This document shows, piece by piece, positions 7,039-38,785 of a stretch of DNA of 38,785 nt. Position 1 is the first letter of the stretch. Each line of letters begins with the position of its first letter. Location of the stretch: positions 1-38,785 of IMG/VR virus record IMGVR_UViG_3300043331_001044; one strand, 5' to 3'. A program made the translations under genes and the position numbers. The stretch is from a virus. Under the pieces are notes generated by a model. It was not told where the DNA came from, did no database searches, and saw only the letters and a program-made list of their open reading frames with translations.

Positions 7039-7047
7039 GGCCATGTG

Positions 7048-7056
7048 TGATACAAT
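7048..7056 (+). promoter_or_regulatory. Extended -10 promoter for a leaderless gene
   Basis: TG (7048-7049), A, then TACAAT (7051-7056), inside the shared motif GTGTGATACAATAGC (7046-7060 region). The GTG start of the next gene follows after exactly 6 nt, so transcription would begin at or beside the start codon. No -35 box is evident 17 nt upstream. Confidence 0.65.
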
Positions 7057-7062
7057 AGCTAG

Positions 7063-7365
7063 GTGAAAGTTCTCGCGTCACTTCGACGCCCCCTCGATCC
7101 CCAGCTGCTGGAGCTTCGGTACTTCAAGACGCTGTCACTCGTGGCCGGCAAGTCTCCTCCCGTGCTGACCGACGGCCACAACGCCGTGTACGTCGGCGTC
7201 GACTGGACCGTTGCCGACGCCAAGGCGTTTGCGGCCATCAGGCACAACATGCCCGAACCCGCGGTGTATGATTGGGACGATGCCACTATTGCAGCTGTCC
7301 TGGCTCGATCGGAGGGCGACGCACCAGCGTCTACCGAGCTCGACCACGAGCGACGGGTACGGTGA
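7063..7365 (+). CDS. Hypothetical protein between MuF and head closure genes
   Basis: A 100-aa protein from GTG 7063, with no Shine-Dalgarno sequence and TACAAT ending 6 nt before it, which points to leaderless translation. I do not recognise the family. It is mixed alpha/beta with a WTVADAKAFAAIRHNMPEPAV segment and a charged C-terminus (ELDHERRVR). The last 86 bases overlap the head closure gene. The location suggests a regulated accessory of the neck region, or an unrelated early gene with its own promoter. Confidence 0.6.
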   Translation: MKVLASLRRPLDPQLLELRYFKTLSLVAGKSPPVLTDGHNAVYVGVDWTVADAKAFAAIRHNMPEPAVYDWDDATIAAVLARSEGDAPASTELDHERRVR

Positions 7366-9233: not shown

Positions 9234-9532
9234 TGAACGTGAAGGACTACGACCAGGCCGTTGAGGAGGTAGACGACAAGTACTACGAGTTCCTCTTCGG
9301 CGGGGAGAAGTTCTCGGTACGCCTCAACCTCAACGGAGGCATGGTCCTCTCGTGGATGGAGGGAGCTACGTCCAACCGCTCGATGGTGGACCTGCTCAAG
9401 ATGATCTTCGGGGACGAGGACTACAAGCGTCTTAAGGATACGAGACGCCCGTGGTCCCAGTACGCGATGCTCATCAACGACATCTTCGAGCAGCTGGGCG
9501 GCCCGGGAAACCCGCAACCCAGTCCCTCCTGA
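9233..9532 (+). CDS. Tail assembly chaperone, short form (gpG-like)
   Basis: A 99-aa protein from GTG 9233, coupled to the tube gene stop (TAGTG). It is the zero-frame product of the frameshifted chaperone locus that coats the tape measure during tail building. It has a beta hairpin early (YEFLFGGEKFSVRLNLN) followed by helices (MVLSWMEGA, MVDLLKMIFGDEDYKRL). The frame ends at TGA 9530-9532, 21 bases past the slippery heptamer. Confidence 0.85.
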   Translation: MNVKDYDQAVEEVDDKYYEFLFGGEKFSVRLNLNGGMVLSWMEGATSNRSMVDLLKMIFGDEDYKRLKDTRRPWSQYAMLINDIFEQLGGPGNPQPSPS

Positions 9533-9882
9533 GGTTCCTCACCAGGTACCGAGGCATCCTCGGTACCTGGGCTGAGGTTGAAGCCTACTTCGCGGCCGAA
9601 TATGGGTTGGAGGTAAAGCAGGTGCTGGGTATGAGTTGGCGGCGCTTTCGCGTGCTCCTAGCGCGTGGGTTCGTCATCGACCCGCAGCACCCACTTACGG
9701 AAGCTCCGCAGATGCCGGGGATCACCCCCTCGGTGGAGAACGGCTTCAAGTCGATGGATCCTCGCTACGCCAAGTATGGTGGATTCGACTGGAACGCCGC
9801 CTTGGATAAGGCCGTCGGGCGCGAGACTCCGACCAACGTAGTACGCATGTCCTTAGACCAGATGCTGAAGGCTTCTCGCTGA
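9233..9882 (+). CDS. Tail assembly chaperone, -1 frameshift fusion (gpGT-like)
   Basis: Ribosomes that shift -1 on GGGAAAC (9505-9511) leave the short form after residue 93 (Gly-Asn) and read on as PATQSLLRFLTRYRG to TGA 9880-9882, giving about 216 aa. In the lambda paradigm the T part links the chaperone to the tail tube subunit. The added part includes LTRYRGILGTWAEVEAYFA, MSWRRFRVLLARGF and ends SLDQMLKASR. It has no good independent start, which supports expression by frameshift. The tape measure starts at 9882, overlapping the stop. Confidence 0.82.
9505..9511 (+). promoter_or_regulatory. -1 programmed frameshift slippery heptamer GGGAAAC
   Basis: In the zero frame the heptamer reads G GGA AAC, the exact X XXY YYZ arrangement. 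Both tRNAs can re-pair on GGG AAA, entering the frame that continues to 9882. It sits 21 bases before the zero-frame stop. Confidence 0.88.
9537..9577 (+). other. Strong hairpin downstream of the frameshift site
   Basis: CCAGGTACCGAGG (9542-9554) and CCTCGGTACCTGG (9558-9570) are perfectly complementary, a 13-bp stem with a 3-nt CAT loop. A further 5-bp stem, CCTCA (9537-9541) with TGAGG (9573-9577), extends it across a 2-nt GC bulge. It lies 30 nt past the slippery site and just after the zero-frame stop, in the coding sequence of the fusion form. Confidence 0.85.
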
Positions 9883-20251: not shown

Positions 20252-21232
20252 CTGTTCGTCATACTTGAGGGTCCCGACCGTACCGGCAAGACGACCCTCG
20301 CAACCAAGCTTCAGCAGCTCGCTAAGAGTGAGCTCATGTCGGCGGTCGAGCTTCGGCACTCGGCGCAACCCAAAGTTCACCCGCTGCAGGAGTACGTTCT
20401 CAGCCTCGAGGGTGAGAGTCGCTGGCAGCCGCGCGTCTTCGACCGCTGGCACCTCGGCCAGTGGGTCTACCCGCGCACCATCCTCGGGCGCCGCGACGGC
20501 CTGACCGACGCGCAACTTCTTTGGATCGAGTTGTTTCTCATGTCGCGGGGAGCTTACCTGATCCTCCTCACCGACAAGGTCGACTCCATCGTGGAACGCG
20601 TCGACCAGGACGAGGATTCGTACCTGCGGCGCGACGACGTCGCTACGTGCGTCGGCAACTTCTACGAGGCGTGGTACCGGTCGATCCTTCCGGGGATCGT
20701 CACCGACCTGCCGAACGCCGACCCCGAGTTTCTCGTCAAGTCGGCGATGCGCATCCACTTCTCCTACTGTGGCGTAGCCGACGCGCCCAAGCGGGTGATC
20801 GGAAACACGTTCGAACCCGACGCCATCCTCGTCGGGGACGAGCTAGGTAAGCCGCATCCACCGGAGGCGACTCACCGGGTACCATTTGCGGCGTACGGCG
20901 GAGCCAGCGGGCACGTGTTGATGAGCGCGCTCCTCGCCACGCGGCTAACGCGGAGGATCGCGCTCGTCAACTCCCTCACTCCCGAGGGTGAGGTTGAAGA
21001 TTTCCACCATTTACGTGAGACGTATCCACGGGCGCGATTCGTCGCTCTCGGCAACGAGGCGCGCGCACGCATGCTCTCAGCCTTCGGAGCTGAAACCTTC
21101 AGCTCGGTGCCGCACCCACAGTACGTTCGACGCTTCCGCTACGGGCAGCTTTTTAGCTACGCGGCGGCACTCGAGGTCGCGGTCTTCAACAAGACTCCAG
21201 TGGACATGCGCAAGGCGTGGGAAGATGCCTGA
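20252..21232 (+). CDS. P-loop dNMP kinase fused to a uracil-DNA-glycosylase-like domain
   Basis: A 326-aa protein. No ATG/GTG/TTG exists upstream of the P-loop, so CTG 20252 is proposed; it has a strong GGAGGAGG site 8 nt before it, and starting at ATG 20336 would remove the P-loop. Residues 1-~165 are thymidylate-kinase-like: FVILEGPDRTGKTT (2-15), DRW (64-66) and LID-like VERVDQDEDSYLRR. Residues ~190-297 have the order of UDG-superfamily motifs: ILVGDELG (192-199), PF...GGASGHVLMSALL, IALVN (236-240), RFVALGNEA and VPHPQYVRRF (286-295). It is the first gene of a block that includes a TS homologue and dCMP deaminase. It may phosphorylate a modified dNMP; the UDG-like part could act on, or only bind, pyrimidines. 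Confidence 0.7.
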   Translation: MFVILEGPDRTGKTTLATKLQQLAKSELMSAVELRHSAQPKVHPLQEYVLSLEGESRWQPRVFDRWHLGQWVYPRTILGRRDGLTDAQLLWIELFLMSRGAYLILLTDKVDSIVERVDQDEDSYLRRDDVATCVGNFYEAWYRSILPGIVTDLPNADPEFLVKSAMRIHFSYCGVADAPKRVIGNTFEPDAILVGDELGKPHPPEATHRVPFAAYGGASGHVLMSALLATRLTRRIALVNSLTPEGEVEDFHHLRETYPRARFVALGNEARARMLSAFGAETFSSVPHPQYVRRFRYGQLFSYAAALEVAVFNKTPVDMRKAWEDA

Positions 21233-22040
21233 GCTTCACGTCCCCGACATGCGCAACGGCTACGTCGACGTGGTCGAGTGGGTCCGACGCGAGGGCAAGC
21301 CGGTGGCGCCGCGTGGGATGGAAACACTCGAGATCACCAACGCGATGATCCACGTCGCCGACCCGTACGACTGCCTACCCGTCGGGATCGGCCGGAAGAA
21401 CTACTCGAGGCGGTTCGCGGCCTGCGAGGCGGCGCAGCTGATCGGCGGGGTATCGGACGTTAAGTTGACGCTGCGGATCAATCCAAACATGGAGCAGTTC
21501 CTCGACGACGGCAAGTTCCACGGAGCGTACGGACCGCGGGCCCGCTACGCGCTGCGAAACGCCGTTCGCAAGCTGCAGATAGACCCCGACACCCGACAAG
21601 CGGTCGTGCCGATCTTCCAGGAGGACGACGTCAAGTTCACGTGGCGTGACGTGCCGTGCACCCTGAACCTACACCTGTCGATCCGCGACGGGCGACTGCA
21701 CCTCACGACGCACATGCGCTCAAACGACGTGTGGTGGGGACTCGGCTACGACGCGTTTCAGTTCACCCAGCTTCAACTCACGGTAGCCAACGTGATCAAC
21801 GTTCCCGTCGGTACCTACACCCACGTGGCCGACAGCCTGCACCTCTACGAGCGCGACTTCGAGGCCGTTCGGCGCCTCTACAAGACCCGGGACCCGTCGA
21901 TCGAGGCCGTTTACCCGCGCGGGTTCTACGGGGACGACATCAACGAGGCGCAGCTTACCGCGCGGCGCATCATCGCTAACTCGCTGCGGGACGAACCTAA
22001 CGCTAGCGAGACGTGGTACCTGCAGAGGCTACACGGGTGA
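21225..22040 (+). CDS. Thymidylate synthase homologue, predicted dCMP (hydroxy)methylase
   Basis: A 271-aa protein from ATG 21225, overlapping the kinase gene by 8 bases. It is ThyA-like: Cys145 in DVPCTLN (nucleophile), Arg165-Ser166-Asp168 in MRSNDVWWG, His206 and Tyr208 in SLHLYERD. All are offset by one from E. coli ThyA numbering (C146, R166, S167, D169, H207, Y209). The residue matching Asn177, which selects dUMP, is Asp176 (GLGYD). In known enzymes, Asp here marks dCMP specificity (T4 dCMP hydroxymethylase; engineered TS N177D/N229D). The MRSNDV segment also resembles the T4 enzyme. So it likely makes 5-hydroxymethyl- or 5-methyl-dCMP rather than dTMP. This is inference from one key residue plus context. 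Confidence 0.72.
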   Translation: MPELHVPDMRNGYVDVVEWVRREGKPVAPRGMETLEITNAMIHVADPYDCLPVGIGRKNYSRRFAACEAAQLIGGVSDVKLTLRINPNMEQFLDDGKFHGAYGPRARYALRNAVRKLQIDPDTRQAVVPIFQEDDVKFTWRDVPCTLNLHLSIRDGRLHLTTHMRSNDVWWGLGYDAFQFTQLQLTVANVINVPVGTYTHVADSLHLYERDFEAVRRLYKTRDPSIEAVYPRGFYGDDINEAQLTARRIIANSLRDEPNASETWYLQRLHG

Positions 22041-22486
22041 TCCGACCGACCTGGGAGACGACGTGGCACCAGGTCGCACTGGTGATGGCGCAGCGCTCGG
22101 CGTGCGCGCGGCGTAAGATCGGGGCCGTGATCGTCACCGAGCGTAACCGCGTCGTGGCGACGGGTTACAACGGACCGCCGGCGGGACTCGACCAAACCTG
22201 CACCGAGGACTGCCCGCGGTGGAAGACCGACGGGATAGATCCGACGTACGACAACTGCATCTCGATCCACGCCGAGGCCAACGCGCTCATGTTCTGCGAT
22301 CGCAAGGACCGCGAGGGTGGCACGATCTACGTCAACGAGTTGCCGTGCTACAACTGCGCGAAGCTGATCGCGAACTCGGGACTGACGAGCGTGGCCGTCG
22401 CTACCCTCGCTGATCAGGAGCACCGGCCTCTTAGCGAGGTGCTGATGCTGCTCGCGAACGCGGGGATCGACGTCCTAGTCGGATGA
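22037..22486 (+). CDS. dCMP deaminase
   Basis: A 149-aa protein. GTG 22037 (in-frame GTG 22013 also possible) makes a GTGA overlap with the TS homologue. The zinc site is clear: HAE in ISIHAEANALMF and PCxxC in ELPCYNCAKLI. The upstream VMAQRSACARRKIGAVIV and ATGYNGPPAGL are standard deoxycytidylate deaminase motifs. It converts dCMP to dUMP, feeding dTTP synthesis and lowering dCMP. T4 carries the same pair, deaminase plus dCMP hydroxymethylase. Confidence 0.88.
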   Translation: MIRPTWETTWHQVALVMAQRSACARRKIGAVIVTERNRVVATGYNGPPAGLDQTCTEDCPRWKTDGIDPTYDNCISIHAEANALMFCDRKDREGGTIYVNELPCYNCAKLIANSGLTSVAVATLADQEHRPLSEVLMLLANAGIDVLVG

Positions 22487-24243
22487 GCCTACCAGTTGAC
22501 CTCCAGCTCAACCTAGTTGAGACGTTCGATGACGCGCGGGCGTACCTCGACTGGCTCGAACGCTGCAACGCCCCGGTGCTCGGCTGCGACACCGAGACCG
22601 GTGGCCTCAGCGGGTGGTGGCGGGAGCCGCTGCGAATGGTGCAGTTCGGCGACGCGATGACGGGCTGGGCGATCCCGTGGCATCTCTGGCCAGGCCTCGT
22701 CCACGAGACGTTTAAGCGCTGGCCACGAGACTTCGTGCTCCACAACGCTAAGTTCGACGTCGAGTTTCTCGAGCATCGCCAAATTGAGGTGCCACGACAC
22801 CGGATCCACGACTCCCTTCTCCTCGCCCGCGCCGTCGCTCCGCACATGTCCGCCGCGCTAAAGACGACGGCCGATCGACTCGTCGACAGCCGCGCCGGCG
22901 GCATGGGCCGTGCCCTCGACGTCGCGATGATGAAGGGGAAATGGACGTGGCGAACGGTGCCGTGGAACATGGACCTCTACTGGACCTACGCGGCGCTCGA
23001 TCCGGTGCTGACGGTCCGCATCTGGGACGAGCTGCTGAAGGATCCGGCGGCACACTCCCACTGGAGCGCGTACCAGATCGACCTAGCTGTGCAGATGACG
23101 GTTATGGACATGGAGCAGCGGGGGATCGGCGACGACATGGAGTACTGCTCGGACTGGGCGATCAAACTTGAGGCGTACGAGGAACGAGTGCGGGACTGGG
23201 CGACGAGGACGTATGGAATTCACAACATCGGTTCCGACGCCGAGCTTGTCAGCTTCTTCCAGCGCGCGGGTTTCCATCTCACCCAGACGACCGACAAGGG
23301 AAACCTGAGCATGGACAAAAACGTGCTCGCGTCACTCTACCCTCACCCCTTGGCGGTCGCGGTCGCGCAGTACCGCAAGGCCAACAAGCGCCGGACCACG
23401 TACTTCGAACCGTGGATGGACTTCTCGTACGAGGACAGGATCCACCCGAACTTCAACATCTCGGGAGCGCGGACCGCGCGCATGTCGTCCGACAATCCGA
23501 ACCTGCAGAACGTGCCGCGGTCGCGGATGGTACGGCGGGGACTGGTCGCGAAGCCGAACCACGTTCTCGTCCTCGCTGACTACGACCAGATCGAACTTCG
23601 CCTCATGGCGCACTTCGCCGACTCGAAGCCGATGATCGACGCGATCCACGCCGGGGAGGACCTCCACACCTACACCGCGAAACTCGTCTACCGCACGAAC
23701 GACCCTACGAAGGAGCAGCGTCGGATCGCAAAGCACTCCAACTTCGCGAAAATTTACGGTGCCGGGATCGGCAAGTTCGCGTGGACCGCGGGTATCACGT
23801 TCGAGGAGGCGCGGGAGTTTCTGACCCGCTACGACCAGGAGTTTCCCGAGGTACGACAGTTTCAACAGCGCGTGTCGACGGCGGCGTACCAGTCGGCGGC
23901 GCAGTCGGAGGACAAGCTGGCGCACCTGACGAGCTCGTTCGTCGGGCGCCAGCAGGTCGCGGCTCCGAGTGAGGCGTACAAACTTGTCAACTACATCGTG
24001 CAGGGTACGGCAGCCGACGTCCTCAAGGTCAAGATGCTCGACATCGATCGGAGTGACTACGGGTCGGCGATGACGATCCCGATCCATGACGAGATCGCAT
24101 ACGAGGTGCACGAGAACGACGCGGAGGAGTTTGCGCGCGGACTCCCCGAGGTGATGGAAGACCGTGATTCGTTCAAAGTTCCACTCTCGGTGGGAGTGGA
24201 GATCGTGCGCAACTGGGGTGACAAGTACGAGGAGGGGACCTGA
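22483..24243 (+). CDS. Family A DNA polymerase with 3'-5' exonuclease
   Basis: A 586-aa protein from ATG 22483 in ATGA overlap with the deaminase gene. The exonuclease domain (~25-190) has Asp36/Glu38 in GCDTETGG, HNAKFDVEFL and YAALDPVLT. The polymerase domain has the RTARMSSDNPNLQNVPR motif, motif A LADYDQIELRLMAHF (~362-376), motif B QRRIAKHSNFAKIYGAG (~410-426) and motif C PIHDE (533-537). The O-helix residue after AKHSN is Phe, not Tyr. It lacks a 5' nuclease domain. Length matches phage replicative pol I types. It is the replicative enzyme of this phage. Confidence 0.95.
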   Translation: MSLPVDLQLNLVETFDDARAYLDWLERCNAPVLGCDTETGGLSGWWREPLRMVQFGDAMTGWAIPWHLWPGLVHETFKRWPRDFVLHNAKFDVEFLEHRQIEVPRHRIHDSLLLARAVAPHMSAALKTTADRLVDSRAGGMGRALDVAMMKGKWTWRTVPWNMDLYWTYAALDPVLTVRIWDELLKDPAAHSHWSAYQIDLAVQMTVMDMEQRGIGDDMEYCSDWAIKLEAYEERVRDWATRTYGIHNIGSDAELVSFFQRAGFHLTQTTDKGNLSMDKNVLASLYPHPLAVAVAQYRKANKRRTTYFEPWMDFSYEDRIHPNFNISGARTARMSSDNPNLQNVPRSRMVRRGLVAKPNHVLVLADYDQIELRLMAHFADSKPMIDAIHAGEDLHTYTAKLVYRTNDPTKEQRRIAKHSNFAKIYGAGIGKFAWTAGITFEEAREFLTRYDQEFPEVRQFQQRVSTAAYQSAAQSEDKLAHLTSSFVGRQQVAAPSEAYKLVNYIVQGTAADVLKVKMLDIDRSDYGSAMTIPIHDEIAYEVHENDAEEFARGLPEVMEDRDSFKVPLSVGVEIVRNWGDKYEEGT

Positions 24244-24368
24244 TGCCGGTTAGAAAGAGGGGACGCTACTGGCACATCGGAAAGGGGAAGGCGAGATACA
24301 AGTCGAAGAAGTCGGCGAACAAGGCATACCGTGGCTACCTCGCGCGGAAGCACGGGAAGAGGAAGTGA
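24243..24368 (+). CDS. 41-aa very basic protein after DNA polymerase
   Basis: A short frame from ATG 24243 (TGATG overlap) to TGA 24366-24368. The protein is MPVRKRGRYWHIGKGKARYK followed by SKKSANKAYRGYLARKHGKRK. Nearly half of its residues are Lys or Arg. Tight overlaps on both sides (with polymerase and with the GTG of the resolvase) support it as a real gene. It may bind nucleic acid or ribosomes; no family is assigned. Confidence 0.7.
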   Translation: MPVRKRGRYWHIGKGKARYKSKKSANKAYRGYLARKHGKRK

Positions 24369-24811
24369 TCCGAGTCATCGCGCTCGATCCCGGCGAAACG
24401 ACGGGTTGGGCGTACGTTGAGGACGACCGCGTCAAGATCGGGCAGCTGCCGTGGCAGGACGCCGCGTCGTGGGTGCACGACTACGTCGCGGCGGCGGTCA
24501 ATCGGCACAAGACGCACGAGGTCACGCTCGTCAGCGAGGCGTTCGTCGTCACGCAGGCGACGGTCAAGAAGAGCCGCGACACGAGCAGCCTCGAGCTGAT
24601 CGGCGTGTGTCGGTACCTCGCGACGCGCTACCTCGCGAAGCCACTCGTGCTACAGTCGGCGAGTGACGCGAAGTCATTCGTAGACGACGACAAGCTCAAG
24701 CGTCTCGGCTGGTACGTCAAAGGCGAAGATCACGCGCGGGACGCGGCACGTCACCTCGCGCTCTACCTCGTGCGCATCAAGGTGCTCAACCCCCGGAATA
24801 TGATCGACTGA
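24365..24811 (+). CDS. RuvC-like Holliday junction resolvase
   Basis: A 148-aa protein from GTG 24365 (GTGA overlap). It has the RNase H-fold acidic sites: Asp8 in IALDPGETTGWA, Glu58 in LVSEAFVV, and Asp122/Asp126 in EDHARDAARHL near the end. The size and the DPG..TGW opening are typical of phage RuvC-type resolvases that trim branched DNA before packaging. It follows the polymerase, consistent with a replication/recombination role. Confidence 0.82.
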   Translation: MIRVIALDPGETTGWAYVEDDRVKIGQLPWQDAASWVHDYVAAAVNRHKTHEVTLVSEAFVVTQATVKKSRDTSSLELIGVCRYLATRYLAKPLVLQSASDAKSFVDDDKLKRLGWYVKGEDHARDAARHLALYLVRIKVLNPRNMID

Positions 24812-25395
24812 TGTCTCAACGCTTTGGCCTCATGTTCGAATTTCACCCTGATAAACCCGGCACTCCTGCGCAGCAGGAGACGATCCGCAGGGGTATCGAA
24901 AACTTCGGTTACGGCACTAAGCGCTGGCGCCTCATCTGGCTTCTCGCGACGGCGTACAAGAAGAAGCAGGACGAGATCACCGGAGGCCTCGCGGGTAGTC
25001 GGCACCACGCCACGGTCTCCATCGACGGGACGACGGGGTACTCGTTTGCCGTTGCGCTCGTCGTCCCCGACTTCACCGGCAACGACCTATGGTTCTCGTT
25101 CCTCCACGAGGTAGCTCACCTGTACGATCGGTACGTGATGGACCCGGTTAGGCGGGCCCAGCTGATGGACTCGATCAAGGATGTCAACCTCCACGCCGCC
25201 GCCGGCAACTGGCTCGGCGTGTCAACCGACTACTTCAACCAGCCGGACGAGATCTTCTGCTGGAGTTTCATGCGTCTGCTCGTACCCGAGATGCCGGAGC
25301 TTCCGTACGGGTACACCCGCGAGGTTCTCCAGGACGTCCTACCGAGCGCCGACAGAGCCTGGGTCGACGCTGGGTTTGAGATCCTCGACGAGTAG
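24811..25395 (+). CDS. HEXXH zinc-metallopeptidase-like protein
   Basis: A 194-aa protein from ATG 24811, overlapping the RuvC stop by one base. His99-Glu100-Val-Ala-His103 in WFSFLHEVAHLYDRY is a textbook zinc-protease helix. Glu147 in QPDEIFCWSF is a good third ligand ~44 residues later. No signal peptide and no membrane segment, so it acts in the cytoplasm. I do not recognise a named family; phage examples near replication genes have unknown targets. It might cut a host regulator or process a phage protein. Confidence 0.65.
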   Translation: MSQRFGLMFEFHPDKPGTPAQQETIRRGIENFGYGTKRWRLIWLLATAYKKKQDEITGGLAGSRHHATVSIDGTTGYSFAVALVVPDFTGNDLWFSFLHEVAHLYDRYVMDPVRRAQLMDSIKDVNLHAAAGNWLGVSTDYFNQPDEIFCWSFMRLLVPEMPELPYGYTREVLQDVLPSADRAWVDAGFEILDE

Positions 25396-25431
25396 TCAGG
25401 AGAGCCAGACTTCCAAGGGCCCGATATCCGG

Positions 25432-25453
25432 CAGAAAATTTCTCAGAAAATTT
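25432..25453 (+). repeat. Direct repeat CAGAAAATTT x2 upstream of a promoter
   Basis: CAGAAAATTT occurs at 25432-25441 and 25444-25453, 12 nt apart (about one helical turn). The first copy is part of an AGAAAATTTCT inverted repeat (25433-25443). The AT-rich block stands out in this GC-rich genome and reaches the -35 region of the 25475 promoter, so it may be an operator or an UP-like element. Confidence 0.6.
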
Positions 25454-25480
25454 ACTCTCACTCCGCAAGTGTGATACAAT
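25452..25480 (+). promoter_or_regulatory. Extended -10 promoter of the SNF2/recombination operon
   Basis: TG (25472-25473), A, TACAAT (25475-25480), in the shared GTGTGATACAATAGC motif. A weak -35 (TTACTC, 25452-25457) lies 17 nt upstream. The gap 25396-25515 holds this promoter, the AT repeat before it and AGGAGGTCA before ATG 25516. Confidence 0.72.
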
Positions 25481-25515
25481 AGCCTTCGCGGAGAGCCCGC
25501 AAGCAGGAGGTCAGA

Positions 25516-25896
25516 ATGGGAGCAGCGAACTTCATCACCGGAGGCACCGGAGCCACCATGCGGGAGGCGTTTAGCAACGCCGCCCAGCAGGCCGCACACG
25601 AGTACGGCCACGGCGGGTACACCGGCACGATCGCCGAGAAGAACGGCGTCGTCGACCTCGGCAAGTTGCCTGAAGGCCTGACCCCGTACCAGTTCCAGGA
25701 CCTGCTTTTTCAGTATGAGGAATCGTTCGACGAGGATGAGAGCTGGCGAACCAAGCGCGACGTCTACAGGTACGACGGCCCGCATGCCGACCTCGTCAAG
25801 AGGGCGTTCAAGACCTGGGACGACAAGTGGGGCGACGCGATCGGCTTCGAACTCGGCAACGGAAAGTACGTCTTCATGGGGATGGCATCGGAATGA
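25516..25896 (+). CDS. Conserved phage protein of unknown function (YGHGGYTGTIAEK type)
   Basis: A 126-aa protein from ATG 25516 behind AGGAGGTCA, first gene after the 25475 promoter. The N-terminal ANFITGGTGATMREAFSNAA and AHEYGHGGYTGTIAEKNGVV resemble small phage proteins that share the YGHGGYTGTIAEK motif. The rest is acidic and aromatic (FQDLLFQYEESFDEDESW). HEYGH fits the HExxH pattern, but the conserved surrounding Gly-Tyr-Thr-Gly makes a protease reading doubtful. Function unknown. The stop overlaps the SNF2 start (ATGA). Confidence 0.72.
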   Translation: MGAANFITGGTGATMREAFSNAAQQAAHEYGHGGYTGTIAEKNGVVDLGKLPEGLTPYQFQDLLFQYEESFDEDESWRTKRDVYRYDGPHADLVKRAFKTWDDKWGDAIGFELGNGKYVFMGMASE

Positions 25897-27653
25897 TCCG
25901 AGCCGAGATCGTCAACGGCCGGGTCGACATCGACTCCGAGTTCCGCCAGAAGGACCTCGTCAAGCAGGTGCCCGGCACGACCTTCGACCGCGAGCGCCGC
26001 GTGTGGACCGCTCCCCTCTCGTGGGGCACGTGCCTCGCGCTTCGCGGCGTGTTCGGCCCCGAGCTGCAGATCGGCCCACTTCTCGGCGACTGGGCGTGGG
26101 AGCAGCGTCGGCAGTGGATCGACCCCGCGCACTCTCTCCGGCTCCAACTCGACTACCCCTCGCAGACGCTCGCCGACCAGGCGCTCTTTCCCTTCCAGCG
26201 CGCGGGCGTCGCGTTCCTCTCTACCGTCGGCCGCGCCCTCATCGCCGACGAGATGGGCTCCGGCAAGACCGTGCAGCTCATCCGCGCGATCGCCTACCTG
26301 CCCGACGCGTACCCCGCGCTCGTGGTCGCGCCCAACACGGTCAAGTACAACTGGCAGCGCGAGTACGAGCGGTGGAACCCACTCGCCCGCGTGGTCGTAG
26401 TCGACGGCAACGTGACCAAGCGTCGCGAGGCCCTGAAGAAGATCGAGCTCGGCGAGGCCGACGTGGCGATCGTCAACTGGGAGGGGCTGCGGGGGCACTC
26501 CCGCCTCGAGGGCTACGGCAACATCCGACTCAAGCGATGCCTAACCTGCGGCGGCGAGGACGCGACCGTCAAGGACACGGCCTGCGAGAGCCACCCGAAG
26601 GAACTCAACAACATCAAGTGGGGAACCGTCGTCGCCGACGAGGCGCACCGGGCGAAGGACCCGAAGGCCAAGCAGACTCGCGCCCTCTGGGCCGTCGGCC
26701 GCGACGCCAACTACCGCTTCGCCGCCACCGGCACCCCCGTCGCCAACCACCCCGGCGACCTCTGGAGCATCATGAACTTCGTCTCCCCCGACGACTTCCC
26801 GCGCAAGACGTCGTACGTCGACCGCTACTGCCTGCAGTCGTGGAACGCGTTCGGCGGCATGGAGATCGTCGGCGTGCGACCTGAGACGAAGGCCGAGTTC
26901 GCCGCCCTCGTCGACCCGCGGACGATCCGCCGGCTCAAGAGCGTCGTGCTGCCCCAGTTGCCTCCCAAGGTTTACTCAACCCGCCACGTACAGCTGACCC
27001 CCAAGCAGCGGAAGGCCTACAACGAGATGGCGGACCTCATGATCACCCAACTCGACGAGGGCGACGTCACGTACGCGACGAACCCCCTCGCGCGGCTCAC
27101 CCGGCTCACCCAGTTCGCCAGCGCCTACGCCACCCTCGAAGGTGACGACCTGCGGCTGGCTGAGCCGAGCTGCAAGATCGACGGGCTCCTCGACGTCCTC
27201 TCCGAGGCGGAGGGTGAGCAGGTGGTCGTGTTCGCGGAGAGTCGGCAGCTGATCGAGCTCGCCAGCGCGCGACTCGAGAAGGAGAAGATCTCCCACGGCC
27301 TCATCACGGGAGCGATCCTCCCGGCGGAGAGGCAAAACAACGTGGACAGCTTCCAGGCGGGACGCCTGCGGGTGATGCTCTGCACCATGGGTGCCGGAGG
27401 CGAGGGCATCACCCTCACGGCGGCGCGGATCGTCGTCTTCCTGCAGCGGAGCTGGTCGCTAGTCAAGAACAAGCAGGCCGAGGACCGGGTGCATCGGCCC
27501 GGCCAGGACGCCAACAAGGTCGAGATCATCGACGTCGTAAGCGTCGGAACGGTGGACGAGGAGATCATCGACGTGCGGGAACTCAAGGAGGAGCGATTGC
27601 AGGAGGTGGTCCGCGACAAGGAGGCGGTGCGGAAGATGCTGGAACGACGATGA
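25893..27653 (+). CDS. SNF2-family helicase/ATPase
   Basis: A 586-aa protein. ATG 25893 is chosen for its ATGA overlap; an earlier in-frame start lies deep in the previous gene. After an ~85-residue N-terminal domain come Q motif-like LFPFQRAGVAFL, Walker A ADEMGSGKT (118-126), motif Ia LVVAPNTVKYNW, the DEAH box VVADEAHRAK (~245), motif III RFAATGTPV, motif V TMGAGGEGITLTAA and motif VI QAEDRVHRPGQ (~527). A zinc-finger-like insert (Cys216, Cys219, Cys231, His234) sits between lobes I. SMARCAL1-like enzymes of this kind remodel forks or anneal DNA; phage forms probably aid replication or recombination. Confidence 0.9.
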   Translation: MIRAEIVNGRVDIDSEFRQKDLVKQVPGTTFDRERRVWTAPLSWGTCLALRGVFGPELQIGPLLGDWAWEQRRQWIDPAHSLRLQLDYPSQTLADQALFPFQRAGVAFLSTVGRALIADEMGSGKTVQLIRAIAYLPDAYPALVVAPNTVKYNWQREYERWNPLARVVVVDGNVTKRREALKKIELGEADVAIVNWEGLRGHSRLEGYGNIRLKRCLTCGGEDATVKDTACESHPKELNNIKWGTVVADEAHRAKDPKAKQTRALWAVGRDANYRFAATGTPVANHPGDLWSIMNFVSPDDFPRKTSYVDRYCLQSWNAFGGMEIVGVRPETKAEFAALVDPRTIRRLKSVVLPQLPPKVYSTRHVQLTPKQRKAYNEMADLMITQLDEGDVTYATNPLARLTRLTQFASAYATLEGDDLRLAEPSCKIDGLLDVLSEAEGEQVVVFAESRQLIELASARLEKEKISHGLITGAILPAERQNNVDSFQAGRLRVMLCTMGAGGEGITLTAARIVVFLQRSWSLVKNKQAEDRVHRPGQDANKVEIIDVVSVGTVDEEIIDVRELKEERLQEVVRDKEAVRKMLERR

Positions 27654-28105
27654 GCGAGCTGAAGTTCGGGGAGTACGAGGCGTTTGAGAACAAGGAGTTC
27701 GAGAAGGGCACGCCGTGGAGCTCTCCGGGGATCGAGTACCCGCTGCCGCGTCGAGGAGCGTGGCGGCGGCTACGTCCCGGCGCTCGCCCGTACTACGTCG
27801 CGGACCCCGTCCTGCGGGTCCCTAGTCGACTCGCGCGCTGGGGCATGCTCTCGGTCCGCATCTCGTGGCGGGACGCGAATCCGGTGGCGAAGTTGCTCGT
27901 GGATCCGAGCCCTCGCGGCTGGTACGCGCTGTGGTGGCTGCAGAGAAACCCGCTGCAGTTCTCCGCCGACGTCAAGACGGCGGACGACCCCGACTGGCGC
28001 CGGGTGTACCAGCGCGTCGAGGTCGTGGTCGGGAAGCGGTTTCCGGAGGAGCCTTCTCACCCCGGCGACGCTCCCGACTTTTGGGTCGACGACGTGTTAC
28101 AGTAG
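27650..28105 (+). CDS. Hypothetical protein
   Basis: A 151-aa protein from ATG 27650 (ATGA overlap with the helicase gene). It is rich in Arg, Trp and Pro, with RRGAWRRLRPGARPYYVADP, SVRISWRDANPVAKLLVDPS, GWYALWWLQRNPLQF and an acidic C-terminus (DAPDFWVDDVLQ). No motif is recognised. It is co-transcribed with the helicase. Confidence 0.6.
   Translation: MSELKFGEYEAFENKEFEKGTPWSSPGIEYPLPRRGAWRRLRPGARPYYVADPVLRVPSRLARWGMLSVRISWRDANPVAKLLVDPSPRGWYALWWLQRNPLQFSADVKTADDPDWRRVYQRVEVVVGKRFPEEPSHPGDAPDFWVDDVLQ
28095..28103 (+). promoter_or_regulatory. Extended -10-like element before the zinc-finger gene
   Basis: TG (28095-28096), T, TACAGT (28098-28103) in GTGTTACAGTAGG, close to the shared motif of the window. 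It overlaps the end of the preceding gene and ends 7 nt before CTG 28111. No -35. Confidence 0.4.
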
Positions 28106-28110
28106 GTCAC

Positions 28111-28359
28111 CTGACCACCACTCAAGACGCCATATACGAGTGCACCGAGTGCGGCCAGACCTTCGACTCGCCCCTTCGCAGGGCAGGTCACATGGGCGGC
28201 CGACACGGGCGTAAACTCGTCCCCATCCGCCACGGTACCTACAACGGCTACATCCAGCACGTGCGCCGCAAGGTTCCCGTCGACGAGAACGACTCGTGCG
28301 GCTGCAGGGCGGCGCAATCCGCCTACCAGCGGGAGCGGCGCACCCGCCTAGCGGGATGA
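28111..28359 (+). CDS. Small C2H2 zinc-finger protein
   Basis: An 82-aa protein. No ATG/GTG/TTG lies before the first zinc ligand, so CTG 28111 is proposed, perhaps on a leaderless mRNA from the TACAGT box. Residues 11-32 (C-x2-C-x12-H-x4-H: ECTECGQTF ... RRAGHMGGRH) form a C2H2 finger. The second half has HGTYNGYIQHVRRK (41-54), then CGC (63-65) and a basic tail. The HGTxxGYxxHxRR pattern recurs in the 37087 protein. Likely a nucleic-acid-binding regulator. The start codon is the weakest part of the call. Confidence 0.55.
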   Translation: MTTTQDAIYECTECGQTFDSPLRRAGHMGGRHGRKLVPIRHGTYNGYIQHVRRKVPVDENDSCGCRAAQSAYQRERRTRLAG

Positions 28360-29297
28360 GGTACTACACCAACTCGGAGCTGCAGACCTGGCTCCGCTGC
28401 CGGCGGAAGCACTACCTCGGCTACCAGCTCCAGTACGAGCCGGCGCGGGAGCGCCTGATCCCTCCCCGCCTGCGCGGCAACCTCAGCCACGCGGCACTCG
28501 AGCTTTGGTACGCGACGGGGGACGACCCGCTTGCCTTCATCCACGCGGAGAGGGTCAGGATCCTCACGACGTACGAGGCGTCGGTCGAGTACGTCGACGT
28601 CGACGACCTCAAGGAGATCAACTCGACGCTCGACCTCGTCCACGCGATGGTAGAGGGCTACCTGCAGTGGGTCGGGGAGACGGGCGCCGACCAGGACCTC
28701 GAGCTTATCTCGACTGAGCACGAGGTGGCGGTTCCACTGGCGGGGCACGCAAAGGGAAAGCGCTGGGAGGAAGTCGCGCTCCTCGGCAAGCTCGACGCGC
28801 GCTTCAACCAGCTGTCGACGGGGTTTCGACTCTTTATGGATCACAAGACGGTAGGTGACCTAGTGCAGCTGCCGAGGTGGGCGATCATGCACCCGCAGCT
28901 TCTCTTCTACCACCTACTCGAGCGCCTGACCGACACGAAGCAGCACTGCGACGGCGGGATCTTCAACATGCTCCGCACCGTCAAGCGCACGGGCTCGTCG
29001 AAGCCGCCGTACTACGACAGGTGGCCCGTGCCGCACAACCCGGAGCACCTGCGCAACTTCTGGACCCAGACGCTCTCGATCATCGTCGAGATCGAGGAGG
29101 CGAAGGAGATGCTCGAGAACGGGGTAAGCCACCAGACGGCGTGCTATCCCAGTCCGCGGCAGGAGTGCTCGTGGGACTGCGAGTTTTTCGCGGTGTGTCC
29201 GATGATGGACGACGGTTCGGATTACCGCGCGGTCCTCGCCAGTGCGTATAAGGTAGGGAACCCGCTGGAGCGTTACCGGTCGCTCGAGAAGGGTTAG
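28356..29297 (+). CDS. Cas4/RecB-like PD-(D/E)XK exonuclease with likely Fe-S cluster
   Basis: A 313-aa protein with ATG 28356 (ATGA overlap), giving MRYYTNSELQTWLRCRRKHY. The fold marks are Cys15 in the first helix, the nuclease core KLDARF and FMDHKTVG (Asp...Asp-x-Lys), the QLLFYHLL helix (the Q-x-x-x-Y motif) and a C-terminal cysteine cluster (CYPSPRQECSWDCEFFAVCP). One early Cys plus three late Cys is the 4Fe-4S arrangement of Cas4/AddB proteins. It likely resects DNA ends with the annealing proteins next to it. Confidence 0.84.
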   Translation: MRYYTNSELQTWLRCRRKHYLGYQLQYEPARERLIPPRLRGNLSHAALELWYATGDDPLAFIHAERVRILTTYEASVEYVDVDDLKEINSTLDLVHAMVEGYLQWVGETGADQDLELISTEHEVAVPLAGHAKGKRWEEVALLGKLDARFNQLSTGFRLFMDHKTVGDLVQLPRWAIMHPQLLFYHLLERLTDTKQHCDGGIFNMLRTVKRTGSSKPPYYDRWPVPHNPEHLRNFWTQTLSIIVEIEEAKEMLENGVSHQTACYPSPRQECSWDCEFFAVCPMMDDGSDYRAVLASAYKVGNPLERYRSLEKG

Positions 29298-29321
29298 CGC
29301 CCACCGGTAGGAGGAGGTCAG

Positions 29322-30098
29322 ATGACTACGTACGCACCGGAGCAGGTCGCGTACCAGGAACAACCCCAGCAGCTGGCGCCGCAGCCCAACGGCTACGCGC
29401 CCCCGTACCTGCCCCTGACGACCGTGATCCACGGCGAGTCGGGAGCGGGGAAGAGCTGGCTGGCCGACACGTGTCCCGCGCCGCGCCTGATCCTCGACGC
29501 CGAGGGTGGGAGTCGCTGGACGCCGTCGCAGCCAAAGATCGTGTGGTCGCCGTACGAGAACCCACCTGCCTACGACGGGTCGTGGCAGACGACCGTCTGC
29601 TACGTCCGGGACTTTCCGACGATGCAGCGCGTTTACCAGTGGCTCAACTCGGGGCAGCACCCGTGGGTCTCGTGCTCGATGGACTCCCTGACGGAGATCC
29701 AAAAGCGATGCGGGGACGCGATCGCCGGCACCAACCAACTCACCCAGCAGGACTGGGGACAGCTCCTGCGCGACATGGAGTCGCTGGTGCGTCAGTACCG
29801 CGACCTCACCTTCCACCCGACGCGCCCACTTCTCTCCGTCAACTTCGTGACGCTGACCGACAACGACAAGGGCGTGATGCGTCCCTCAGTGCAGGGTCGG
29901 CTTCGCACCACGTTGCCGGGATTCGTGGACGTCGTCGGATACCTATACACCGTGGTCAACGGAGCGGGTCAACTCGAGCGCCAGATGCTTACGCAGCCGG
30001 CGCCAGGCTACCTCGCGAAGGACCGCACCAACCGGCTACCCATGGTAGTCAACGAACCCAACCTCTCGAGGATGATGGAGGTCATCAATGGCAGGTAA
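29322..30098 (+). CDS. Sak4-like RecA-fold ATPase
   Basis: A 258-aa protein from ATG 29322 behind GGAGGAGGTCA. The N-terminal 30 residues are Gln/Pro-rich. Walker A is IHGESGAGKSWLAD (36-49), then LILDAEGG (a RecA-like strand) and VSCSMDSLTEIQKR (Walker B region). Small single-RecA-domain ATPases next to an SSB and an exonuclease are the Sak4 type, ssDNA-annealing recombinases. The stop overlaps the SSB start by 11 bases. Confidence 0.82.
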   Translation: MTTYAPEQVAYQEQPQQLAPQPNGYAPPYLPLTTVIHGESGAGKSWLADTCPAPRLILDAEGGSRWTPSQPKIVWSPYENPPAYDGSWQTTVCYVRDFPTMQRVYQWLNSGQHPWVSCSMDSLTEIQKRCGDAIAGTNQLTQQDWGQLLRDMESLVRQYRDLTFHPTRPLLSVNFVTLTDNDKGVMRPSVQGRLRTTLPGFVDVVGYLYTVVNGAGQLERQMLTQPAPGYLAKDRTNRLPMVVNEPNLSRMMEVINGR

Positions 30099-30846
30099 AT
30101 CGTGGGGGGATCTCCTCGGCCAGGCCGAGGCAGGACCCGAACCCATCCCGGACGGGATCTACGACTTCGTGGTGTCGACCGCGAAGTCCCAACCGGCTAA
30201 GACGGGCGCCCCGATGGTGGTCGCCGTGCTCAAGGTCGTATCAGGTCCCTACGCCGGCAAGACGGTGTGGCACAACTTCGTGCTCACCGAGGACAACCCG
30301 AACGCGCTGGGCTGGTTTTTCAAGCACATGGCGGCACTTGGGATCGACCAGTCGACGATCGCGGCTCTACCGCCGCCCGAGCAGGGTGGGCTGGAGCAGC
30401 TGGCGCAGATGATCGTGGGCCGGTACGTCACGGCCAACGTCGGGCACCGCCTCTGGCAGGGCTCGACCCGCAACCAGCTAGGCGACATCAAGCCGTACGG
30501 TGGCGGGGCCCAGCAGGCCCCTGGAGTGCCGCAGGTGCCCCAGCAGCCGGCCGCGCCCCAGTACCAACCGCAGCCGATGGCGCAGCCGTACCCGCCCGGT
30601 CCGATGGCACCGCAGCCGTACCCGCAGCCCCAGCCGATGCCGGCTCAGCCTACGCAGGCGCCGACCCCGTACGCCGCGCCCTACCAGCAGCCGCAGCAGC
30701 CGGCCTACGCCCCGGCGGCACCCGCTCCCGCGCAGGCTCCGCCGATGCCCGAACCGCAGCAGGCTCCGCAGCCGCAGGCTCCGCAGGTCCCACCCGGGCC
30801 TGACCCGAACCAGCCGCCGTCGGTCCCGCCGCCCCCTCCGTTCTGA
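30088..30846 (+). CDS. SSB-like protein (DUF669-type) with Pro/Gln-rich tail
   Basis: A 252-aa protein from ATG 30088. Residues 1-~140 have the DUF669-like pattern (IPDGIYDFVVSTAKSQPA, VVAVLKVVSGPYAGKTVWHN, ALGWFFKHMAALGI), an OB-fold-like protein that pairs with Sak4. From ~145 on, the chain is a low-complexity Pro/Gln/Ala tail (QPQPMAQPYPPGPMAPQPYP and so on). It ends PPPPPF, recalling the C-terminal Pro-Phe of SSB tips but lacking their acidic residues. The tail may bind partners or form condensates. Confidence 0.72.
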   Translation: MAGKSWGDLLGQAEAGPEPIPDGIYDFVVSTAKSQPAKTGAPMVVAVLKVVSGPYAGKTVWHNFVLTEDNPNALGWFFKHMAALGIDQSTIAALPPPEQGGLEQLAQMIVGRYVTANVGHRLWQGSTRNQLGDIKPYGGGAQQAPGVPQVPQQPAAPQYQPQPMAQPYPPGPMAPQPYPQPQPMPAQPTQAPTPYAAPYQQPQQPAYAPAAPAPAQAPPMPEPQQAPQPQAPQVPPGPDPNQPPSVPPPPPF

Positions 30847-36855: not shown

Positions 36856-37094
36856 GCGAGGTGGTCAACGTCTCGGAGGTGCGACTTACCGTCTACGGCC
36901 TGCCGGACGACTTCGGATACCTGAACCACCAGCAGAAGCGCGACCACCTGGTCGGCAGGCTCGAGCCACTCGCCGAGGAGGGCTGGCAGCGGACGGTCGT
37001 CGACTGGCTGAAGGACCCCGCGACGGACGTCTACTTCTTCAAGCCGACGACGGCCCCGATCGGCCAGGTCGAGATCAGGCCCCGGCTTGGGTGA
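36852..37094 (+). CDS. Hypothetical protein
   Basis: An 80-aa protein from GTG 36852 (GTGA overlap). It has VSEVRLTVYGLPDDFGYLNH, QQKRDHLVGRLEPLAEEGWQ and TDVYFFKPTTAPIGQVEIRP, a mixed alpha/beta small domain. No family is assigned. Confidence 0.58.
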   Translation: MSEVVNVSEVRLTVYGLPDDFGYLNHQQKRDHLVGRLEPLAEEGWQRTVVDWLKDPATDVYFFKPTTAPIGQVEIRPRLG

Positions 37095-37482
37095 GCTGGA
37101 GGTCGGGGACCCGGCGTGGTTCGTGCGCTGGGGGCGGAGGTGGACGGGCGTGGTTGCGGGACGCTCCAAGGGGGGTAGGAGCCTCGCGATCCACACGAGG
37201 TGGGGACTATTTCACGTGGCGGCTAGGGACGCGCACGCCCCGGACTGGTGCCCCGGCTGCGGGAGGCGGACGGGCCTCGCTGGACGCCGACATGCGGGGC
37301 ACGTCGGCGGCTGCGTCGGCAGGGGGCACGAGAGTCCTTATAAGGGGGTGCCGCGCAAGGAGATCGCGCACGGGACCAACGCCGGGTACGCCGCGCACCG
37401 CCGGCGGGGCGAGGAGGCGTGCCGGGACTGCAAGGACGCCCACTCGAAGAGAGAGCTGGAGCTTAGGCGCCGGAGAGGATAA
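37087..37482 (+). CDS. Zinc-binding protein with HGTxxGYxxHxRR motif
   Basis: A 131-aa protein from TTG 37087 (8-base overlap); no better in-frame start lies upstream. An N-terminal SH3-like strand set (VGDPAWFVRWGRRWTGVVAG) is followed by Cys55/Cys58 (CPGC), His/Cys at 69-81, then HGTNAGYAAHRRRGEEACRD (95-114) with Cys112/Cys115 and a very basic end (RELELRRRRG). The HGTxxGYxxHxRR pattern matches the 28111 protein. Likely DNA- or RNA-binding. Confidence 0.58.
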   Translation: MGELEVGDPAWFVRWGRRWTGVVAGRSKGGRSLAIHTRWGLFHVAARDAHAPDWCPGCGRRTGLAGRRHAGHVGGCVGRGHESPYKGVPRKEIAHGTNAGYAAHRRRGEEACRDCKDAHSKRELELRRRRG

Positions 37483-37553: not shown

Positions 37554-37778
37554 TCAGCTCCCGAAGGTGACCAACGCGAGAAACTCGCGGGTTTCCTTGA
37601 GGGTGTCGAACGTGGCGACCCGCTCGCGGTCGCGCCGCTCCCAGTACGCGCGGTCGGGGTTTGCGATCCGGTAGACGTGGAAGCGGTCCTTGCGAAACGT
37701 GGCGTCGTAGGTGACGTCGACCTGGAAGACGCCGTCGGCGGTCTCCCACCCGATCCCGGTGCGGCGGCGGAGCTTCAC
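37554..37778 (-). CDS. Small minus-strand hypothetical protein
   Basis: A 74-aa protein from GTG 37778 to TGA 37554, coupled to the upstream minus-strand gene by a 4-base overlap; AAGGTGG precedes the start. It reads MKLRRRTGIGWETADGVFQV, then FRKDRFHVYRIANPDRAYWE, then RVATFDTLKETREFLALVTF. It is beta then helix, rich in Arg and aromatic residues. No family is recognised. Earlier in-frame starts would add an Arg-rich stretch and were rejected. Confidence 0.58.
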   Translation of the reverse strand: MKLRRRTGIGWETADGVFQVDVTYDATFRKDRFHVYRIANPDRAYWERRDRERVATFDTLKETREFLALVTFGS

Positions 37779-37981
37779 TTTGCCACCTTGGCGGCCTTGA
37801 CGGCCCGCTCGAACGCGGCCTTGTGCTCCGGGGCGGCGTACCGCAGGTTGGCGCGCCCCTGGGCGGGGTCGGCCACGGCGTAGTGGGCCATGACGTGGGC
37901 GGGGACGACGCAGACGGCCATCCACGGGATGCCGGCCAGCTGCTCGGCAGCCGCGGCGTAGGGGTCGGTGGGTGCTTGCAT
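37775..37981 (-). CDS. Small minus-strand hypothetical protein, leaderless
   Basis: A 68-aa protein from ATG 37981 (reverse strand). It reads MQAPTDPYAAAAEQLAGIPW, MAVCVVPAHVMAHYAVADPA, then LRYAAPEHKAAFERAVKAAK. Helical and Ala-rich. The TACAAT box ends 6 nt before the ATG, so the mRNA should be leaderless. It heads a two-gene minus-strand unit. Function unknown; a regulator of the phage switch is one possibility, without direct evidence. Confidence 0.6.
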   Translation of the reverse strand: MQAPTDPYAAAAEQLAGIPWMAVCVVPAHVMAHYAVADPAQGRANLRYAAPEHKAAFERAVKAAKVAK

Positions 37982-37984
37982 GAG

Positions 37985-38020
37985 GCTATTGTATCATACT
38001 CGCGCACGGTGTGCAAATCG
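37985..38020. repeat. 36-nt promoter repeat, copy 1
   Basis: This segment and 38448-38483 are identical at 32 of 36 positions and in the same direction. The first 17 bases (GCTATTGTATCATACTC) are identical. Each copy holds a complete minus-strand promoter. Confidence 0.85.
37988..38016 (-). promoter_or_regulatory. Minus-strand promoter of the two small genes
   Basis: On the minus strand: TTGCAC (38016-38011), 17-nt spacer, TACAAT (37993-37988), preceded by TGA as an extended -10. ATG 37981 follows after 6 nt. The -35/-10 geometry is ideal. Confidence 0.8.
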
Positions 38021-38021
38021 A

Positions 38022-38444
38022 GGTTGTGGCCCGCTGGTAGTCCCGCTCAACTGACGGCCGGGCCGAGAGCGGCGACCCCGGCATAACCCGGCCGGGTCGG
38101 GAACCTCCAAGCCCCGGCGGGAGCGGCCAGAGCAACTCAGAGCAGGCCGGGTGGTGCGCTCCTCTCGGTACCGTCTCCGAGTTAGCCGGGTTAACGGCTC
38201 AGGCCACTTCCTCCTGGCTAGGTTGGTTGGCTCGCTCCCGTCGGGGCTCGAGTCGAGGTCCTCGCGGGAGGACTCGAGGCGGGCTCCAACCCTCGAGCGG
38301 ACCGTTCCCCGTCTCCGGGGCCTAGGAGCTTCGACCGCTCCTGCGCGCGTCGTTTCCGGGTGCTCCCCTCTCGGGGTCTTCGTTACCGGCGCCCTGCCGG
38401 CGTCCGACGCGCGGGTCCTTGCGTATCCTCCCGCGAGGATCTCG
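38022..38444 (-). ncRNA. Candidate large structured non-coding RNA
   Basis: No convincing protein is encoded between 37982 and 38532. A full promoter at 38479-38451 points into this region. On the minus strand many perfect stems tile it (plus coordinates): 38425-38430/38435-38440; 38386-38390/38396-38400; 38365-38368/38373-38376 (GAGA loop); 38324-38329/38337-38342; 38307-38311/38316-38320 (GAGA loop); a nested set 38225-38230/38286-38291, 38237-38240/38280-38283, 38247-38252/38273-38278, 38259-38263/38268-38272; 38184-38188/38195-38199; 38164-38168/38177-38181; 38028-38033/38059-38064. GNRA loops appear only when read on the minus strand. I do not recognise a known RNA family. Confidence 0.5.
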
Positions 38445-38447
38445 GTT

Positions 38448-38483
38448 GCTATTGTATCATACTCCCGCGCGGCGTGCAAACCG
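38448..38483. repeat. 36-nt promoter repeat, copy 2
   Basis: Second copy of the 37985-38020 repeat, 32 of 36 bases identical. Differences fall between the -10 and -35 boxes and just beyond, leaving both boxes intact. Confidence 0.85.
38451..38479 (-). promoter_or_regulatory. Minus-strand promoter of the structured RNA
   Basis: On the minus strand: TTGCAC (38479-38474), 17-nt spacer, TGA then TACAAT (38456-38451). Unlike the copy at 37988, no start codon follows 6 nt downstream, so the product is probably RNA. The plus strand of the same element reads TATTGT and TATCAT, so weak rightward firing toward the sigma gene is also possible. Confidence 0.75.
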
Positions 38484-38487
38484 CACG

Positions 38488-38517
38488 GTGAGGGCAACCG
38501 TGAGGGCACGGTGAGGG
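38488..38517 (+). repeat. Three GTGAGGG repeats upstream of the sigma gene
   Basis: GTGAGGG occurs at 38488-38494, 38500-38506 and 38511-38517, spaced 12 and 11 nt, about one helical turn. They lie between the minus-strand promoter and the sigma-like start and could be an operator; the last copy is also Shine-Dalgarno-like. Confidence 0.6.
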
Positions 38518-38532
38518 AGTTAACGTGACCTC

Positions 38533-38785
38533 GTGGTGGACGTGACCGAGCACGTGGACTGGGCCCGGCAGCTGGCCCGGCGGGAGACCCGCGGCTGGCC
38601 CCGCTTCCTGCGGGAGGACGCCGAGGGCGACGCGCTGGAGGCCCTGGTCTGGGCGGGTCGGGAGTACGACGCGGCGCACGAGGCGGGGGCGACGTTCAAG
38701 ACCTTTGCCCACTACCGGGTCAAAGGTGCCGTCGTGGACGGGCTCAGGGCGTGGACGAGGGGGAGGTACGAGCGCCAGCGGGTGG
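38533..38785 (+). CDS. Sigma-70-family factor, N-terminal part (cut by window edge)
   Basis: The frame is open to the end of the window. GTG 38533, 38536 or 38542 could start it; TAA at 38521 closes the frame upstream. About 84 residues are seen. VTEHVDWARQLARRETRGW, then LREDAEGDALEALVWAGREY, then ATFKTFAHYRVKGAVVDGLR fit sigma region 2: the 'eD..q.a..gL..A...yD....F.tyA..ri.gai.D.lR' core with polymerase- and -10-binding helices. The rest (regions 3-4) lies outside. A phage sigma could redirect host polymerase; which promoters it reads is unknown. Confidence 0.75.
   Translation, partial: MVDVTEHVDWARQLARRETRGWPRFLREDAEGDALEALVWAGREYDAAHEAGATFKTFAHYRVKGAVVDGLRAWTRGRYERQRV

Follow-up and report, generated by a model that had tools for sequence, protein, structure and literature searches.

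At the right end of a phage genome fragment of 38,785 nt (IMG/VR record IMGVR_UViG_3300043331_001044, the whole of which is referred to here as the window), we identify, on the minus strand from position 38444 to at least 38254, a candidate gene for an early, stable, trans-acting phage non-coding RNA, a reading to which we assign a probability of slightly under one half (about 0.48). The locus is non-coding, contains promoter-like sequence and is structured in excess of expectation, and the structure starts at the predicted transcription start; from these features we infer transcription, its timing, the stability of the RNA, its action in trans and a protein target. A preliminary description had proposed a structured RNA of approximately 420 nt. 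The promoter, the non-coding status and the excess of structure all hold for that stretch, whereas a well-defined fold on the minus strand is limited to its first ~191 nt. The locus is thus a good candidate for a non-coding cassette with a defined domain of about 190 nt, rather than for an ornate RNA of 420 nt.

The gene-free stretch and its neighbours

By its gene content, the window comes from a tailed phage: the encoded proteins include portal, head and tape measure proteins, thymidylate synthase, a family A DNA polymerase, an SNF2-like helicase, an exonuclease, a Sak4-like annealing protein, a cytosine methylase and a primase. Because the nearest matches of the helicase belong to phages of actinobacteria, an actinobacterial host is probable. 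The same phage is represented, at 99.98-99.99% identity, by two contigs of sister metagenomes (L114, IMG/VR 3300036839, and L115, IMG/VR 3300036838), and the L115 record extends approximately 13.6 kb upstream of the portal gene.

The rightward genes of the window stop near 37482 and are followed by two small leftward genes (37554-37981), 551 nt without a gene and a rightward sigma-like gene that runs off the contig. As the preliminary description had recognized, this gene-free stretch (37982-38532 by codon-usage gene calling) is the largest in the window. All six frames of 38022-38448 score negatively when evaluated with the codon usage of the phage itself (-0.27 to -0.63 bits per codon); four nearby genes score +0.23 to +0.59. 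The open minus-strand frame, already suspected of being a shadow, is indeed best regarded as such because its G+C content is flat across the codon positions (0.66/0.70/0.70), compared with approximately 0.9 at the third position of real genes. Together, codon usage and codon-position G+C rule out a coding frame in 38022-38448, and the segment is non-coding. An overlapping ORF at 37087-37482, with a weak WhiB-like similarity (PHROG E 2e-5), shows codon usage near background (-0.04 bits per codon).

The first of the two small genes (68 aa, 37775..37981, minus strand) starts with an ATG located 7 nt past the -10 box of a promoter-like sequence, P2, so that its message would apparently be leaderless, and the second (74 aa, 37554..37778, minus strand) starts with a GTG that overlaps the stop codon of the first (GTGA). 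Leaderless messages are common in actinobacteria. No relatives of either gene were found, and both are orphans; six viral-contig loci considered as relatives of the 68-aa gene turned out to be spurious, antisense matches inside a capsid-like gene. Contrary to the earlier characterization of these genes as divergent, they share the orientation of the candidate RNA and are preceded by a separate copy of its promoter type. The gene that does diverge (38533..38784, plus strand, cut by the contig end) is present where a sigma factor had been proposed, but the similarity to sigma-70 region 2 is weak (PHROG 32691, E 9.5e-4; Pfam PF04542, 15.5 bits, below the cut-off of 24).

Promoters and upstream repeats

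The sequence and a promoter scan agree on the minus-strand promoter reported previously, P1 (38451..38479), which consists of a -35 box TTGCAC (38479-38474), a 17-nt spacer and a -10 box TACAAT (38456-38451) preceded by the TG extension. Transcription is predicted to start at about 38444, 7 nt past the -10 box. The scan yielded three sites in the region compared to 0.1 in shuffles. At 37988..38016, on the same strand and 463 nt downstream of P1, lies P2, a second TTGCAC-17-TACAAT copy that also carries the extended TG. The 39-nt blocks around P1 and P2 are identical at 32 of 39 positions, spacer included, which exceeds the needs of sigma recognition alone. Because the second copy would drive the two-gene unit behind it, the candidate RNA would form its own cassette, bracketed by two promoter copies.

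The window contains five copies of the TRTGATACARTAG box, one of them at P1, and a 19-nt pattern around this box has four matches in the window and none in any of the window shuffles. Six further TRTGATACARTAG boxes, one of which has a mismatch, are present in a second contig, which aligns with the window over 9.8 kb at 99.98% identity and contains additional sequence upstream of the portal gene. By these sequence criteria, P1 is predicted to be a strong promoter and one of a phage-wide set. Members of this family map to 7046, 25470 and 35868 on the plus strand and to 37986 and 38449 on the minus strand of the window, and to 1853, 2816, 4103 and 5925 in L115. In several of the TRTGATACARTAG promoters, TTGCACACCGTG is found at the -35 position and in the spacer, and the conservation of the spacer suggests an overlapping operator. 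Immediately upstream of P1, between this promoter and the divergent sigma-like gene, sequence inspection and a motif scan revealed three near-copies of CCCTCACCGTGC (38483..38517, minus strand, in the arrangement CCCTCACCGTGC / CCCTCACGGTTG / CCCTCACCGTGC). The CACCGTGC core reappears, according to the motif scan, within P2 as well as in one of the second contig's promoters, and the repeats upstream of P1 are candidate operator sites.

Folding of the predicted transcript

The region is rich in hairpins, as had been claimed. We counted 20 perfect stems in 38022-38448 (at least 6 bp, loop of 3-29 nt), compared to 7.1 +/- 3.5 in dinucleotide shuffles, only 3 of 1000 of which reach 20, and to 5.4 +/- 3.2, with a maximum of 17, in 427-nt stretches elsewhere in the window. 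The two hairpins with GAGA (GNRA) loops noticed on the minus strand are likewise real and have no counterpart on the plus strand; the shuffle mean is 0.14, and 12 of 1000 shuffles reach two. Although the G+C content of the region is 71%, the shuffle tests reveal an excess of hairpins beyond that expected from GC-rich DNA, the ready hairpin formation of which had been raised as a caveat. When folded as a whole, the 427 nt yield z-scores of -3.9 on the minus strand and -4.6 on the plus strand against dinucleotide shuffles (0 of 100 in each case), whereas 88 similar-sized windows elsewhere have a mean z of -0.65 with a standard deviation of 1.4, two of them lying beyond -4.2.

The structure is concentrated in a 5' domain of ~191 nt (38254..38444, minus strand), which is predicted to consist of a long-range closing helix (38427-38444 paired with 38254-38271, 13 + 4 bp) and a multibranch core whose hairpins include both GAGA tetraloops. 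Within the closing helix, 38427-38439 pairs with 38259-38271, and two further predicted helices are 38405-38413/38344-38352 and 38337-38342/38324-38329. On the minus strand, this domain has a z of -5.06 and an ensemble diversity of 0.085 per nt compared to 0.243 in shuffles, 1 of 100 of which is as low; for 38252-38446, z is -5.2 and the centroid is almost the same as the minimum-energy fold. When the 5' end is slid in 4-nt steps, z changes from -3.8 at 38440 to -5.7 at 38444, -4.9 at 38448 and -2.5 at 38456, so that the best fold score coincides with the predicted transcription start at 38444. We consider this agreement the strongest single argument for an RNA because the folding calculation is ignorant of the promoter.

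Among 482 minus-strand windows, the 5' domain ranks first, and the overlapping segment 38092-38286, which spans the domain boundary, ranks third (z -5.0). However, four minus-strand windows elsewhere, at least some of them in coding genes, reach z values between -4.7 and -5.1, so that the fold alone is no proof. The 3' part (38022..38253, minus strand) folds more weakly, with a z of -2.2 and an ill-defined centroid for 38022-38251 compared to -3.0 on the plus strand. A sequence scan found no intrinsic (U-tract) terminator between the candidate RNA and the downstream genes. The plus strand of the 5' domain folds comparably to the minus strand (z -5.4 versus -5.1); thus, plain energy slightly favours the plus strand. 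Evidence for the minus strand comes from the promoter, the GAGA tetraloops and the lower ensemble diversity that the 5' domain has there. The gap at 7039-7288, behind another TRTGATACARTAG promoter, contains more perfect stems than shuffles, but was rejected as a similar structured RNA given that its first 141 nt fold unremarkably (z -0.8). A strong folding excess on both strands was also observed at 9401-9600, where a coding region ends (z -5.1 and -4.0).

Proposed RNA, rival explanations and comparison with known RNAs

Under the model that we favour, the host RNA polymerase begins at P1 early in infection, and the 5' end of the nascent transcript would immediately pair as one strand of the long-range closing helix, creating a compact, nuclease-resistant branched domain of ~190 nt. 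Transcription probably would continue past this domain, perhaps to about 38020. The RNA would be abundant and stable and would act in trans, for example through binding to a protein of the host or of the phage, whereas the downstream genes would be independent of it thanks to P2, their own promoter copy. We prefer a trans-acting RNA because separate promoters are predicted for the locus and for the genes behind it and because the domain starts at the first predicted transcribed bases; the non-coding status of all six frames and the apparent membership of a strong P1 in a phage-wide set lend further support. The low ensemble diversity of the domain on the minus strand, its first rank among the minus-strand windows compared and the presence of GNRA loops on that strand only also speak for this reading. 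The reading is weakened by the lack of a homologue, the equal folding of the plus strand, the similar z-scores of several other windows and the lack of an intrinsic terminator.

This lack of a terminator also bears on a different interpretation, under which transcription from P1 reads through P2, and the resulting structured leader of ~460 nt regulates the two small genes through attenuation, stability or translation, with P2 providing a separate leaderless message. The position of these genes, directly after the RNA and on its strand, fits such a cis-acting role. Nevertheless, we regard a leader as unlikely: a start codon 7 nt past the -10 box of P2 implies expression free of the leader, the best-defined structure lies far 5', ~270 nt ahead of the first gene, and no anti-terminator/terminator pair was seen.

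The equal folding of both strands is what perfect inverted repeats acting as double-stranded DNA would produce, and the CCCTCACCGTGC repeats just upstream of P1 resemble protein-binding sites, so that an operator cluster, a replication origin, or a recombination or packaging site could in principle account for the locus, with RNA structure as a by-product. We judge such a DNA-level element distinctly improbable given that the structure begins exactly at the predicted transcription start, the GNRA loops are confined to a single strand, and the region, with its high G+C content, displays neither an AT-rich unwinding stretch nor tandem iterons. The same alignment of the domain with the transcription start, together with several measures of structure that exceed those of dinucleotide shuffles, argues against a functionless, hairpin-rich spacer, that is, a decayed gene or DNA inserted between two promoter copies. 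The failure of all searches to detect a homologue, the propensity of GC-rich sequence to form hairpins, the few other windows of the phage with similar z-scores and the flanking 39-nt direct repeats, which could mark an insertion, would all be compatible with a spacer. However, phage genomes rarely retain 430 nt of idle DNA, and we hold this explanation, too, to be improbable.

The closest analogue of the candidate RNA, although unrelated in sequence, appears to be the Pleft RNA of cluster A mycobacteriophages (L5, D29, StarStuff), a leftward early non-coding transcript of ~500 nt that is extremely abundant, stable and processed, is encoded in a locus toxic to the host and has no known function (PMC5712189). 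In both cases, a promoter close to the end of the gene map, here a candidate one, faces leftward and is followed by a non-coding stretch (~500 nt for Pleft, within a gene-free stretch of 551 nt here) ahead of small leftward genes, and promoter-like or operator repeats occur in and around the stretch. Used as a yardstick, the first 450 nt of the D29 region downstream of the leftward Pleft, the transcription of which has been published (PMC5712189), fold with comparable strength (z -5.4). Comparison of this region with the candidate gave only chance-level blastn pieces (E >= 1.5) and no nhmmer match. Unlike Pleft, for which transcripts have been demonstrated in L5 and D29, the RNA described here is predicted from sequence; the promoter and repeat sequences differ as well, and a second promoter copy parts the RNA from the genes.

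The packaging RNA (pRNA) of phi29, a phage RNA shorter than 200 nt, combines a closing helix with a branched core, and the 5' domain of the candidate resembles it in these respects. However, the candidate matches no Rfam family, and the tape measure protein indicates that the phage is long-tailed, unlike phi29. A role in particle assembly, which had been suggested earlier, is not supported by any evidence. With GOLLD and ROOL, also invoked previously, the candidate shares a phage location, the character of a large structured non-coding RNA and the lack of a known protein partner, but it is much shorter (GOLLD often exceeds 800 nt) and, whereas these RNAs often, if not obligatorily, lie near tRNA islands (PMC12286853), no tRNA or tmRNA genes were found in the window. 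The covariance models of Rfam 15 gave no gathering-level match in the window, and at E <= 10 the region matched only Rhodo-rpoB (15.9 bits, cut-off 33.6) and MEG3_2 (12.3 bits, cut-off 60). Assignment of the RNA to GOLLD, ROOL, OLE or any other Rfam 15 family is therefore not supported, in agreement with the earlier impression that it contains no recognizable motif.

Phages of actinobacteria are already known for very abundant early non-coding RNAs of unknown function. Should the present locus, with its sharply delimited structured domain and a promoter of its own, prove to be a second, unrelated actinophage example, this would suggest that such RNAs recur as early regulators or as factors directed at the host. 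The size of the 5' domain would make it accessible to structure determination and pull-downs. We consider it doubtful that the domain represents a novel class of compact phage RNA, in which the first nucleotides close a multibranch structure of ~190 nt, expression is driven by a separate copy of the phage-wide promoter, and the RNA acts in trans, either on the actinobacterial host or on the development of the phage.

Sequence searches of phage records and plasmids detected no homologue of the RNA, the plasmid matches being short GC-rich noise. The full records of approximately 55 related viral contigs and phages likewise contain no homologue detectable by sequence or, for most of them, with a one-sequence covariance model; the best outside match to this model (E 0.24 over 1.1 Mb) was judged to be due to chance because it is hardly better than that of the plus strand of the window itself (16.4 bits, E 0.34). 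None of the seven matches in a promoter scan of viral contigs is followed by similar DNA. The portal-based search retrieved four relatives, at 53-61% identity, in addition to two contigs that belong to the phage itself, and none of these carries the RNA; its absence from the four relatives is weak evidence given that they are fragments in which no match to the late-replication genome end was seen. Among the helicase-based relatives (80 loci, with 50 records searched), no similar RNA and only a single near-match to the promoter box were found. The helicase-based relatives examined have the replication module in common with the phage, at 30-50% identity. In the window, this module (20988-30843) comprises thymidylate synthase, polymerase A, helicase, exonuclease, Sak4 and SSB, in an order common to many environmental and actinobacterial phages.
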